Origin: Leclercia adecarboxylata
Lineage (GTDB): Bacteria > Pseudomonadota > Gammaproteobacteria > Enterobacterales > Enterobacteriaceae
Length of the DNA: 64,000 bases
Assembly: GCF_006874705.1 (NCBI RefSeq)
Contig: NZ_CP035382.1
Coordinates: 4,340,001 to 4,404,000 of the forward strand
Reading direction: 5' to 3'
Below are positions 31,659 through 35,773 of this stretch, one piece after another (position 1 is the stretch's first letter; the number at the start of each line of letters is the position of its first letter). The position numbers and the translations under genes were made by a program. The notes beneath the pieces were generated by a model, which saw only the letters and a list, made by a program, of their open reading frames with translations, had not been told where the DNA came from and did not search any database.

Positions 31659-31844
31659 TTACACCGGCGAATCATCATCAGCGTCCGTGCTGTTAATGAA
31701 GTAAGTCACCCTGCCCATCACCTCGACTTCTTCCGCCGCAGCCCCCTCGATCGCCTCGCCGTCACTGGTTATCAGCGCACTATTAGCAGATCGGAGAATC
31801 TCGTCGTGTAACGAGGCGAAAGCATATCCCGCTTCATTTGCCAC
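31659..31844 (-). CDS. Small phage protein overlapping the end of umuC
   Basis: This 61-residue frame overlaps the last 73 bases of umuC in another frame and ends before the prophage junction. It reads LHDEILRSANSALITSDGEAIEG and ends VEVMGRVTYFINSTDADDDSPV. The VEVMGRVTYFI part vaguely recalls the C-terminus of S24 peptidases, but the catalytic parts are missing. It would start with GTG at 31844, with no clear ribosome site. The coding character after the umuC stop suggests it is real. Function unknown. Confidence 0.5.
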   Translation of the reverse strand: MANEAGYAFASLHDEILRSANSALITSDGEAIEGAAAEEVEVMGRVTYFINSTDADDDSPV

Positions 31845-33040
31845 TGCTGCTGGATACCCTGCCCCGCGAAGTAGAGTGTTCCTCGCCCATTCTTCGAGTT
31901 CAGGTGATCCAGTACTTCCATCAACTTTTCGCTGTTTCGCCGTGGTGCCGAGTCGTCGAACAGGTTCAGCTGCGCAACACCCTGGCTGAAAAAGTCACCC
32001 AGCATTACACCTGCTTTCTGATACCAGTGACCTTCACGCCAGATGTTATCCAGGCAGCGCACTGCGGCATTGATTATGTCGCGAGTGTCCTGTGTTGGCG
32101 TAAGTAATTTCACAGACACATTATTGCCGTAATACGGCTCGTTTATTGCGAATGGGGAGGTTTTCACGAAAGCGGAAATATACCGGCAGTACTGGTGTTC
32201 ACCGCGCATCTTCTCCGCAGCGCGCGCCGCATGACTGCAGATCGCCTGATGCATCTGCTCGTATTCCGTTACCCGTTCACCGAACGAACGTGAGCAGACA
32301 ATCTCCTGTTTTGATGGTGCAAACTCCTCCAGCTCCAGACATGGTTCGCCGCGCAGCTCCCGCACCGTACGCTCCAGTACCACGTTGAAATGCTTGCGAA
32401 TAACCCAAGGGGAAGTATCAGCCAATTGACATGCATTCGTAATGCCCATTGCAGTCAGTTTTTTGCTGATACGCCGACCCACGCCCCATACGTCTTCCAC
32501 TGGAACGATAGACATTAACCGCCGCTGTCGATCAACGTTCGACAAATCCACCACGCCACCAGTCTGCTGCTGCCACTTCTTTGCAGCATGGTTAGCTAGC
32601 TTCGCCAGGGTTTTGGTTTTCGCGATGCCAATCCCTACCGTGAGATGTGTATTACGTAAAACAGTAGCGCGGATCTCCCGGCCAAAATCCTCCAGGTTCC
32701 GGCAGTTCCTCACCCCTGTCAGGTCACAAAATGCCTCGTCGATACTGTAAATTTCCACGCGGGGGCACATGAGCTCTAGCGTAGTCATCACCCGGTTCGA
32801 CATATCCGCATACAGCTCGTAGTTGCTGGAAAAGGTGGCGACGTTATAACGCCGGAATAATTCCCGCTGTTTAAAGAAGGGCTCGCCCATCTTTATGCCA
32901 ATTTGCTTGGCCTCAGCACTGCGGGCGATAACGCACCCGTCGTTATTCGAAAGCGCGACGACAGGCCTCCCCTTTAAGTCGGGTCTGAACACCGTTTCGC
33001 ACGAAGCATAAAAGCTGTTCACATCCACCAGGGCAAACAT
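31772..33040 (-). CDS. umuC: Y-family DNA polymerase V catalytic subunit UmuC
   Basis: This 422-residue translesion polymerase copies damaged DNA during the SOS response, together with cleaved UmuD. Catalytic acids are D6 (VDVNSFYAS) and D101-E102 (YSIDEAF). The steric-gate region FYASCE is present, and QLNLFDD near residue 357 is the beta-clamp binding motif. It has full E. coli length, so it is likely functional. It starts one base after the umuD stop. Confidence 0.95.
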   Translation of the reverse strand: MFALVDVNSFYASCETVFRPDLKGRPVVALSNNDGCVIARSAEAKQIGIKMGEPFFKQRELFRRYNVATFSSNYELYADMSNRVMTTLELMCPRVEIYSIDEAFCDLTGVRNCRNLEDFGREIRATVLRNTHLTVGIGIAKTKTLAKLANHAAKKWQQQTGGVVDLSNVDRQRRLMSIVPVEDVWGVGRRISKKLTAMGITNACQLADTSPWVIRKHFNVVLERTVRELRGEPCLELEEFAPSKQEIVCSRSFGERVTEYEQMHQAICSHAARAAEKMRGEHQYCRYISAFVKTSPFAINEPYYGNNVSVKLLTPTQDTRDIINAAVRCLDNIWREGHWYQKAGVMLGDFFSQGVAQLNLFDDSAPRRNSEKLMEVLDHLNSKNGRGTLYFAGQGIQQQWQMKRDMLSPRYTTRFSDLLIVR

Positions 33041-33041
33041 A

Positions 33042-33461
33042 TCAGCTTGTTGATTTAACTATGTACGTCACCACCCCGAAGATATCCAGGGTTTCCTCGC
33101 TGCCCACCACGATCGGTGAATAGGCACTATTCATGGGATTCAGCTGCACCGTCGGGCGAAGTTGCAGGACTTTAACGGTAAATTCGCCGCCTACGGCTGC
33201 AATGACTATATCCCCGTGTTCAGCCGTTTTGGAACTGTCCACCACCAGCAGGTCTCCGTCACTGATGCCCGCTTCGACCATGGAATCTCCCGCTGCTTTA
33301 ACAAAATATGTTGCGCTGGGATGCTGGATCATCAGTTCGTTTAAATCGATGCGCTGCTCAACATAATCCGCCGCCGGGGACGGAAACCCACACTGAACAA
33401 GACTTGCGTAAAGGGGTAGCGCGACAATGCCGCGCAACTCTGCTGGCGTGTAAAATTCCAT
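33042..33461 (-). CDS. umuD: SOS mutagenesis protein UmuD (S24 peptidase)
   Basis: This 139-residue LexA-fold protein self-cleaves when RecA is activated, giving UmuD' for polymerase V. With the ATG at 33461 the cleavage pair is C24-G25 and the dyad is S60 (GDSM) and K97 (FTVK), exactly the E. coli numbering. AGGAG lies 9 bases upstream. A group II intron ends 22 bases before the start codon, separating the gene from its LexA-controlled promoter at 35394-35434. Confidence 0.95.
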
Positions 33462-33483
33462 AAACAACCACTCCTGATTTTAT

Positions 33484-35392
33484 GTCGCGGTAGGGATACC
33501 CGTTACCGGATACCCCCCGCACAGATCCCGGCGTGCGCGATTTACGCACCGGGCTCCTGCCTCGGGTGTCTGGCGGTGAACCGCTCCACAGGCCATGGAT
33601 GAAGAACCCGAACCCTTGGTAGCCATGCGGCTGCCAGTTTGTTTGCTTTCGTCCAGGTCGTATCATCCTTCTGGCTCCTGCGCCTGAGCGCCCGGCGCCA
33701 GAGGTTTGTTACGTGTGTCCTGAACTTCTGCATGGTGGGGAAGTTGCCCGGTACCGAGTGATAGTTCAGGTATCCCTGAACCACTCTCCTGAGCCATTTT
33801 CCCTGTTCGGGGATTGAGTAATGCCAGCGCCTTCGCAGACCGTCTTTGATGGCTTTCAGAGTTGCCGTCATCCGATCCCGGCGGGTCTTTCGTATCAGCA
33901 TGAACCTGCCGTTGCGATCTTTCCCGCTGATGTGCGTGAACCCGAGGAAGTTGAACGTTTCTGGTTTGCCTTTTCCCCTGATGGCACGGTTTTCGGCAGC
34001 GAAGCGGCCGAACTCCATCAGACGGGTTTTCTCCGGGTGAACCGTGAGTCCGAACTCCCTCAGTCTGCGCTGCATGGCTATACGGAAGCGCCGGGCATCG
34101 TATCGTTTGTCGAACCCGATGACGATGTCATCGGCGTATCTGACCATTACCACATTGCCTGTGGCATAGCGACGTCGCCACTGATGCGCCCACAGATCGA
34201 AGACGTAGTGGAGGTATATGTTTGCCAGCAGCGGTGAGATGACCGCACCCTGTGGGGTGCCTTCCTCCGTTGCTCGCCATTGACCCTCCTCCGACGTCCC
34301 GGCTGTGAGCCACTTACGTATGAGCCTGATTACCCTCCGGTCGCCGATCCGATGCTCTGTGAACCTGATCAGCCATTCGTGGCTCACCCTGTCAAAGAAC
34401 TGACTGATGTCGGCATCCAGTACCCAGTTTACGTTAGTGCGTACCAGCCCTGTGGCCAGTGCGTCCAGTGCATCGTGCTGGCTTCGCCCGGGTCTGAACC
34501 CGTATGAGAACCCCATAAAGTCGTTTTCATAGACTGCGTTCAGGATTTTCACCAGCGCATACTGGACGATCTTGTCCTCCAGCGAGGCGATGCCGAGCGG
34601 GCGTTGTTTTCCATCCGCTTTTGGGATGTAGTGACGCCTGCCGGGCTGCGCCCTGTAGCTGCCCTGATGTAGCCTCCGGTGCAGATCTGTTATGTTGTTC
34701 TTCATGTTTCCGGCGTAGTCCATCCACCTGATGCCATCCACTCCGGCGGCCGCTTTCCTGCTCAGGGAGAGGAATGCGGCTTCCAGTGCTTCGACTGTCA
34801 GCAGGTGGAACAATGCTGTAAACCGTTCTTTCTTCCGCTGCTTCGCAGCTTCCCGCACGCGTGACAGCCTCTGTGACATGCTTTCCCGGCTCTGTGTCCG
34901 GCGCATGTGTGGCTGTTCCGCGTTCCCCTTGGCCCCGCTCCTTCGCTCCACTGACTCCGCTCCTTTCGGGTTGTTCGCCTGCTTCGCCGCTACTATGAGC
35001 GAGTCCGACTTCTCCTCTCCGTACATCACCGGCTATGACTCCTCGTCTTCCCGGTGCGGGCCATCTCCGACACTGGCAGATGGTCAGAGGGGAGATCTCC
35101 CGGTTCCCGCGTAGAGATCGTATTGACATGCCAGGGTCTCAGACCCCGCCGGGTCCATGTGGCACTCGCAGTATCGCACCCTATGATGTTGCCTTCCGTT
35201 AACAGTACAACGTCGGCACCCGGTAATTTAATATACATTTCGTGGCTCAATGGCTGGCCTGTCAACACCCCTGTCAACGCTTCGCCCCATACCTCGCGGT
35301 ATGCAACGCATGACTCGGGGACCTTGTGGATTGCTGGTCCTTCAATGGTCGGGGACTTTCACCCCTTGATCTCTACCGGTCTCCCGGCGCAC
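33484..35392 (-). mobile_element. Group II intron inserted in the umuDC operator/leader
   Basis: The intron is 1,909 bases and encodes a reverse transcriptase. Its 5' end on the minus strand is GTGCGCC at 35392, the group II consensus GUGYG. Its 3' end carries domain V (GAGCCCGGTGCG...CGCACGCCGGGATC, 33555-33520) and a domain VI stem with a bulged A seven bases before the terminal AC at 33484. EBS1 ACTGTT (35206-35201) is fully complementary to the last six bases of the 5' exon, AACAGT. Excision joins ACAGT to ATAAAATCAGGAG and rebuilds a normal umuDC leader. It lies in the sense orientation of umuDC. The bacterial class is not assigned. Confidence 0.93.
33542..35029 (-). CDS. ltrA: Group II intron reverse transcriptase/maturase
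   Basis: This protein of up to 495 residues supports splicing and retrohoming of its host intron. RT motifs run from GVDGIRW near residue 96, through IPKADGKQRPLGI and GFRPGRSQHDAL, to the catalytic YADD at 298-301 and TFNFLGFT. The maturase X domain follows (WLRRVVQGYLNYHSVPGN). No HNH endonuclease is visible at the C-terminus. The frame is intact. The true start may be an internal Met, since the first 50 residues are less conserved in such proteins. It lies in intron domain IV. Confidence 0.93.
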   Translation of the reverse strand: MMYGEEKSDSLIVAAKQANNPKGAESVERRSGAKGNAEQPHMRRTQSRESMSQRLSRVREAAKQRKKERFTALFHLLTVEALEAAFLSLSRKAAAGVDGIRWMDYAGNMKNNITDLHRRLHQGSYRAQPGRRHYIPKADGKQRPLGIASLEDKIVQYALVKILNAVYENDFMGFSYGFRPGRSQHDALDALATGLVRTNVNWVLDADISQFFDRVSHEWLIRFTEHRIGDRRVIRLIRKWLTAGTSEEGQWRATEEGTPQGAVISPLLANIYLHYVFDLWAHQWRRRYATGNVVMVRYADDIVIGFDKRYDARRFRIAMQRRLREFGLTVHPEKTRLMEFGRFAAENRAIRGKGKPETFNFLGFTHISGKDRNGRFMLIRKTRRDRMTATLKAIKDGLRRRWHYSIPEQGKWLRRVVQGYLNYHSVPGNFPTMQKFRTHVTNLWRRALRRRSQKDDTTWTKANKLAAAWLPRVRVLHPWPVERFTARHPRQEPGA

Positions 35393-35393
35393 A

Positions 35394-35434
35394 CTGTTTT
35401 TATATACAGTAGTTTTAAAGAGAGTGCAGATCAA
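35394..35434 (-). promoter_or_regulatory. umuDC SOS promoter with LexA box, cut off by the intron
   Basis: The LexA core CTGTATATAAAAACAG (35409-35394) is a perfect CTG-N10-CAG box identical to that of E. coli umuDC. TTGATC (35434-35429) lies 17 bases before TACTGT (35411-35406), giving a promoter with the E. coli umuDC layout. The intron begins one base past ...ACAGT, replacing the last base of the 20-base operator. Transcription would start only about 5-8 bases before the intron. Confidence 0.88.
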
Positions 35435-35467
35435 TGCGGCGACGCCTATCAATGCCGCCGTCAGGAG

Positions 35468-35773
35468 TTAAACTGCGGCGACAAAATATACGGCGGTGCA
35501 GGCCAGAACAGGAACGAACCAGTCGAGAAGGCTGGGTATGTTCCATGCCCGCAAGTCGAAACCTCTCCACCACGGCATGTTAGCCCGTTTGCCGCCGCCG
35601 AACTGGGCGATCCAGCGATACTCGGCCTGGGTGTGCTCACGGGCGATGAACCACATGCAACCAAGGGCACCACCAGTAGACCAGACTCCAAAACTCAGAC
35701 CAATTGCGCACTGGATAACCACGCAAACAAGTGCATGCATTAACGGTGAGATATCAATCTTATTCTGCATCAT
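35468..35773 (-). CDS. Phage membrane protein, 101 residues
   Basis: The protein starts MMQNKIDISPLMHALVCVVIQ and has three hydrophobic segments: LMHALVCVVIQCAIGLSFGVW, the short GGALGCMWFIA, and WFVPVLACTAVYFVAAV at the C-terminus. The REHTQAEYRWI and FGGGKRANMPWW loops are polar. Proteins of this type are common near tail fibre genes of lambdoid prophages. Their function is unknown; envelope modification or holin-like roles are possible but unsupported. The ATG overlaps the upstream stop (ATGA). The SOS promoter of umuDC lies 34 bases past its end. Confidence 0.75.
   Translation of the reverse strand: MMQNKIDISPLMHALVCVVIQCAIGLSFGVWSTGGALGCMWFIAREHTQAEYRWIAQFGGGKRANMPWWRGFDLRAWNIPSLLDWFVPVLACTAVYFVAAV

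Follow-up and report, generated by a model that had tools for sequence, protein, structure and literature searches.

Recurrent insertion of a mobile group II intron at LexA operators, examined from a prophage umuDC operon of Leclercia adecarboxylata

The stretch of DNA analyzed in this study (the window) comprised 64,000 nucleotides of Leclercia adecarboxylata contig NZ_CP035382.1 (positions 4,340,001 to 4,404,000) and contained a prophage umuDC operon whose operator adjoined a complete group II intron (Table 1). The intron lay directly 3' of CTGTATATAAAAACAGT, the LexA box of the operon, and left the box core CTGTATATAAAAACAG intact; within the 20-bp box, the G of the intron stood in for the final A only. 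The same-strand genes upstream of the intron were phage tail genes and a PHROG of unknown function, and those downstream were umuD and umuC. The same box is found upstream of E. coli umuD (Table 4 of PMC3009722, in the accessible part of that paper), and in intron-free E. coli umuDC the equivalent junction read ACAGT^A. An earlier note on this DNA had described a full, RT-encoding intron in the sense direction adjoining an intact LexA box before umuDC, with ACAGT joined to ATAA rebuilding the operator. Boundaries, domains, and RT were confirmed, intron and box lay at exactly the positions claimed, and the E. coli allele agreed with the proposed junction. Two further copies lay just outside the window: the first was on the other strand, 885 bp past the right end (G000:C3:4404885-4406793), and the second, at a different umuD-type operator, preceded the left end by about 25 kb (4312984-4314892).

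Table 1. Features at the prophage umuDC operator (window positions)
Feature	Position	Strand	Basis
umuC (Y-family polymerase)	31772..33040	(-)	
umuD (S24 peptidase, UmuD-like)	33042..33461	(-)	
Group II intron, 1,909 nt, GTGCG...CGAC	33484..35392	(-)	Five genome copies with differing flanks; intron-free alleles
Domain 6, bulged U-A; candidate branch A at 33491	33487..33520	(-)	Alignment A2 and pair counts
Domain 5, 33 nt, AGC triad, 2-nt bulge	33524..33556	(-)	Alignment A2 and pair counts
Intron-encoded reverse transcriptase/maturase, 495 aa, YADD	33542..35029	(-)	Pfam, TIGR04416, and GsI-IIC RT matches
D1 region matched by Rfam RF02005	35134..35359	(-)	
EBS1 ACUGUU, partner AACAGT (IBS1)	35201..35206	(-)	Covariation, 15 rows
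EBS2 UAUA, partner TATA, LexA box centre	35232..35235	(-)	Covariation, 15 rows; loop limits inferred
IBS1 AACAGT, right half of LexA box	35393..35398	(-)	
LexA box core, intact	35394..35409	(-)	Sequence; E. coli umuD box same
IBS2 TATA, box centre	35401..35404	(-)	
Putative -10 TACTGT, left half of LexA box; start predicted at about 35399	35406..35411	(-)	Predicted from spacing peak
Putative -35 TTGATC, 17 bp before TACTGT	35429..35434	(-)	Spacing peak over 52 LexA sites

In build, the element is an ordinary group II intron. Its GTGCG...GAC ends agreed with the 5' GUGYG and 3' AY consensus, its D1 region matched RF02005 at 186.6 bits and carried EBS1 and EBS2 complementary to the 5' exon, D5 had the AGC triad and bulge, D6 had a bulged A, and the RT/maturase ORF had the YADD motif. 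Across the last 76 nt of 11 distinct relatives (alignment A2), the D5/D6 structure formed standard pairs in 99.7% of 286 cells, with both-sided change in 12 of 26 pairs, compared with 33-46% when it was slid along the alignment; the structure had been written from these sequences themselves and was thereby favored over the slid versions. The third pair of D5, which is usually G.U, was G.A in all 11 aligned relatives (GAG...AUC; window 33524-33556). A Pfam search of the RT returned RVT_1 only (4.6e-47) and detected no HNH/En domain, placing the protein among the En-minus intron-encoded proteins; TIGR04416 matched at 376 bits (cut-off 300), and the best solved relative by sequence was the GsI-IIC RT (8e-43).

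All five intron copies in the window genome lay directly after LexA boxes, as did both copies in G023, a genome of the same genus and the sole other one among the 147 searched with full copies; all seven followed CTG-N10-CAGT. Scans with the first 18 bases of the intron, blind to the target (75 genome-contig and 81 viral-contig stretches, with 54 occurrences dropped as not being introns of this kind), were combined with RT-based loci and other records into 204 copies, which reduced to 111 distinct flanks and 67 sites. Flank similarity was used to tell sites apart, with orthologous loci in different species counted separately, and diverged members were missed, as copies were found by those 18 bases or by the RT. 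Membership of the close lineage required the first 100 nt to be at least 85% similar to those of the window intron or of L061 and took no account of the target. Within it, CTG-N10-CAG occurred at one register in 52 of 56 distinct sites (50 CAGT, 2 CAGV), and there, as in the window, LexA binding is predicted. Shifting the threshold gave 49 of 53 LexA sites at 90% and 52 of 57 at 80%, where L156 joins. The four remaining sites were L271 and L122, with a degenerate left half (L271 and L024 were treated together as one such site), L211, which lay behind another copy, and L261, which had no LexA box. The last, on a plasmid of E. coli BAA-196, was inserted at AACAGT^A at the 3' end of gltS; no other clean insertion away from a LexA box was found in the close lineage. 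None of the other 11 sites, all less than 82% similar, had a LexA box (EBS1 was unreadable in two of them, L038 and L071), and the D1-like copies L009 and L013 had a different target.

The pattern held across replicons. Among the plasmid and E. coli records examined, 20 of 21 copies lay at LexA boxes, as did three of three in phage records. Twelve later plasmid copies, spread by rank over the 60 listed of 4,288 records, were all at CTG-N10-CAGT, but by eye they represented no more than about five sites. When viral contigs were scanned for the box followed by GTGYG, 69 stretches were returned, comprising 64 already-known loci and 5 judged by eye not to be introns. A match covering at least 80% of the intron was present in 4,098 of 72,556 plasmid records, many of them near-duplicates. 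The own umuDC operator of E. coli was intron-filled in 13 of 5,369 genomes matching the query, and the istR2/tisB site was filled in 4 of 4,317; the E. coli umuD and istR2 boxes both appear in a table of UV-induced genes (PMC3009722). Genes beside the boxes encoded UmuD-type S24 proteins, DinI-family proteins, ImuA (imuA), and istR2/tisB, and the plasmid boxes lay beside umuD and, in one case, a colicin-like gene. Colicin-like bacteriocin genes are often SOS-regulated; in L311, a small K. pneumoniae plasmid, the copy lay at a LexA-type box upstream of such a gene.

A single chance insertion that abutted a LexA box without any targeting would fit the finding that one or more ectopic sites, such as L261, lack a box. 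It would not account for one register across nearly all close-lineage sites or for the plasmid and E. coli records. In 400 kb of the window genome, CTG stood at -17 to -15 in 0 of 56 ACAGT^A places. We regard the probability of a chance insertion as negligible, and a one-off event was rejected on the site table. We are very highly confident that the window insertion is an instance of a targeting rule in which LexA boxes are the homing site. The earlier note had treated the insertion on its own and overlooked this recurrence, by which the lineage homes to LexA boxes generally and in either orientation. Identical copies at different sites, together with empty alleles, were an indirect sign that the intron may self-splice and retrohome.

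Several copies departed from the simple arrangement. A head-to-tail intron array without spacer was present in L112 (6088-11832), with four starts exactly 1,909 apart and the fourth copy cut at the sequence end, and two head-to-tail copies without spacer were present on the single contig represented by L145 and L211; in both arrays the first copy was at a LexA box. Tandem retro-insertion, recombination, and an assembly effect are alternative origins for such arrays. In L095, L139, L137, L168, and L162, the 5' exon ended in CAGC rather than CAGT while EBS1 was unchanged (ACTGTT), so that the last exon pair was lost; these exon ends perhaps mutated after insertion. In plasmid records H100 and H105-H110, the match began at base 4 or 6, corresponding to altered intron 5' ends, and L314 (H107), with GTTCG in place of GTGCG, is probably splicing-dead.

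The complementarity of EBS1 to the six bases before the junction, as the earlier note had stated, matched and was accompanied by covariation. In a set of 15 rows, which comprised 6 LexA-site introns and 9 other introns and included some close relatives, EBS1 scored 91.0 against the last 7 exon bases (shuffled mean 54.0, maximum 73.0), and the EBS2 loop scored 68.0 against positions -14 to -8 (shuffled mean 50.0, maximum 63.5), with 0 of 2,000 shuffles as good in either case. EBS1 pairing was weak in L067, and EBS2 pairing was weak in L067, L234, L276, and L050. Among the 52 LexA-site introns, EBS1 was readable in 46, all of which contained CTGT, and in L021 it had changed to CCUGUAU along with a box end of ATACAGG. 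EBS1 and EBS2 of the window intron together formed a near-copy of the LexA half-site. Over 55 sites (the 52 plus L271, L122, and L261), TATA with ACAGT was perfect in 33, and UAUA made three or four of four pairs at -12 to -9 in 54, with G-U allowed; the EBS2 loops of the Burkholderiales introns were somewhat different. Pairing alone almost defines the operator, as six of the eight TATA-N3-ACAGT^A places in the window genome (five filled, three empty) were LexA boxes, a number of places with no statistical power on the role of CTG.

Two other accounts of this specificity were weighed. If the intron paired to any ACAGT^A and only insertions into regulatory regions survived, nearly all annotated sites would be intergenic, as they were, and insertions within genes would be harmful; intergenic survival predicts neither a CTG at exactly -17 to -15 nor the near-constant UAUA pairing at -12 to -9, which makes this account very improbable. 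Recognition mainly by protein, either through reading of the left half-site by the RT or through recruitment of the RNP by bound LexA or by an open SOS promoter, is more plausible on its face. No RNA pairing to the left CTG half was found, though CTG was present in 52 of 56 sites, and the intron-encoded protein contributes to target specificity according to the accessible part of a review (PMC4424553). Against it, EBS1, EBS2, and a +1 A alone sufficed to pick out the six boxes among the eight places, sites with a degenerate left half exist, and L261 has EBS1 only; a mainly protein-based choice therefore appears unlikely. We consider RNA pairing to be the main target determinant with good confidence. 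By this mechanism, the excised intron RNA and its RT would find LexA boxes mainly by pairing of EBS1 with the right half-site ACAGT, with EBS2 pairing to the AT centre and A at +1, and the RT may contact the left CTG half in addition. Reverse splicing would insert the intron into either strand of the palindrome, at the T-A step of ACAGT^A, and priming would probably come from a replication fork, as known for the family, given the lack of an endonuclease domain.

The targeting extended to relatives in the Burkholderiales. RTs of Burkholderia, Paraburkholderia, and another Burkholderiales bacterium were approximately 72% identical and also lay in introns at LexA boxes. A single label change (support 79/97) sufficed for the 12 LexA-box introns in a 31-row RT tree. 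The remaining 19 rows carried the label other; a target could be identified for 8 of these (L156, L037, L067, L233, L234, L276, L078, and L072); the intron start was not found in the 11 others, for which the label means "not known to be LexA". The RT of L156, 68% identical and with another target, branched at the same fork as the LexA-box introns, and L156 could lie inside that group. The tree omitted L027, L050, and L009 (partial or broken ORFs) and contained no ORF class references (A-F, ML, CL).

The strongest signal outside the box was TTGA at 17 bp before TACTGT, which occurred in 19 of 52 LexA sites, whereas none of the other spacings (8 to 29) exceeded 2 of 52; at least four of six matches to TTGACA were present at this -35 position in 24 of 52. 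TACTGT is a weak -10, matching TATAAT at three of six positions. A reading in which the intron destroys the -10 (the recA-like CAGTATAAT) was set aside, as the spacing peak points instead, short of proof, to the in-box TACTGT. A strict consensus scan of 33300-35600 returned no sigma-70-like site on the intron strand, a weak negative because the scan also misses the putative SOS promoter, and no paper on the umuDC transcription start was found in the open-licence literature. With TACTGT as the -10, the intron would begin 7 nt into the SOS transcript. The 5' exon, with a predicted length of only about 7 nt (AAACAGU), would be barely long enough to include IBS1, and splicing would give back the usual umuD leader. 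A sense insertion leaves both the operator and the putative TTGAtc-17-TACTGT promoter undisturbed on its upstream side, so that the intron and its RT would be LexA-repressed and damage-induced; SOS-induced expression of the intron at such sites is therefore plausible, and we give it somewhat better than even chances. Control of polymerase V output by splicing, which the earlier note had also put forward, may apply at the window operon.

Orientation varied among sites. A script assigned the 52 LexA sites as 25 sense, 8 antisense, 4 both, and 15 unclear, with errors in its calls (the sense call for L003 is probably wrong). Among the 12 later plasmid copies, 8 preceded umuD-type genes in antisense orientation. 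In antisense insertions, the intron would separate the SOS gene and box from the -35. The claim of the earlier note that the intron sits between an SOS promoter and its genes thus fits the window, with its putative promoter, and does not carry over to the many antisense plasmid copies. The frequency of antisense insertions was also counted against a general SOS advantage. It is compatible with a contrary reading, in which splicing at this locus is inefficient and umuDC is silenced by an intron that simply obstructs the SOS promoter or takes its place; the predicted 7-nt 5' exon lacks IBS2, so that the SOS transcript may be a poor splicing substrate. However, D5, D6, the EBS pairings, and the RT ORF were intact, identical copies were common, and the co-directional prophage genes upstream could supply longer transcripts. 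We consider silencing unlikely, though not dismissibly so.

A further step would be an SOS-gated retroelement, for which the LexA operator is both landing site and promoter and whose mobility is gated twice by LexA. LexA would then repress the sense-inserted intron and cover empty target sites, and damage would at once free intron RNA, expose sites, and supply stalled forks for priming. Retrohoming of Ll.LtrB in a lexA-null strain was 81-87% of wild type, according to the accessible part of PMC3636086, and the SOS state itself is therefore no general requirement. We offer double gating as a tentative proposal, less probable than its opposite. As a whole, the observations are best explained by a mobile group II intron that homes to the LexA operator and is probably Kl.pn.I5, a reading that we hold with high confidence.

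Comparison with known introns placed this targeting in context. Class C introns insert after intrinsic terminators and use EBS1 and EBS3 only, a description from which the window intron departs; assignment to group IIC was rejected, as the sites are LexA boxes and EBS2 is used and covarying. RmInt1 and other En-minus homing introns lack an endonuclease domain and pair through EBS1/EBS2, both of which hold for the window intron; RmInt1-type introns home to one gene or IS, whereas the window intron homes to a dispersed regulatory palindrome. Ll.LtrB and EcI5 are En-plus and combine EBS1/EBS2 pairing with RT contacts to a longer site; they share that pairing with the window intron, in which no D/En domain was detected. 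Group IIC introns resemble it in having an RT without En and a recurrent functional DNA motif, not one gene, as target (PMC4424553, accessible part), and differ in that they target terminators or attC, whereas the window intron targets a repressor operator.

The window intron was 100% identical to one copy in NC_010886.1, the plasmid pK245, which holds the reference copy of Kl.pn.I5 (Zbase name); further copies are reported in K. pneumoniae MGH (PMC3522654). From the plasmid and the place, the window intron is probably this catalogued element. According to the 2012 paper, Kl.pn.I5 lies between genes, its IBS are well conserved, and its homing site takes in some additional bases, which agrees with our observations; the paper differs in reporting no free homing site in MGH, and a word search of its text for LexA or SOS returned nothing (PMC3522654). 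The main text of a 2025 survey of phage-genome introns mentioned neither LexA, SOS, nor Klebsiella, and no report of a group II intron at a LexA or SOS box or at umuD was found in the open-licence literature. The earlier note had known of no described case, which stood as regards the link to LexA but not as regards the element, since Kl.pn.I5 and its conserved homing site were published. The LexA-operator target rule is new to us and well supported.

The accessible part of a 2015 review recognizes three target specificities of bacterial group II introns, namely homing sites, terminators, and attC (PMC4424553), to which a transcription-factor operator would add a fourth. The LexA operator is a short palindrome that exists in multiple copies, is maintained by selection, and occurs on phages, plasmids, and chromosomes alike, and a target carried by so many replicons may help to explain the abundance of the intron in plasmid records. 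The finding raises the question of whether one stress repressor sets both the expression of a retroelement and access to its targets. Should the sampled sites prove typical, the intron would interrupt many operators of plasmid umuDC operons and of other SOS genes in Enterobacteriaceae, which would matter for models of SOS mutagenesis.
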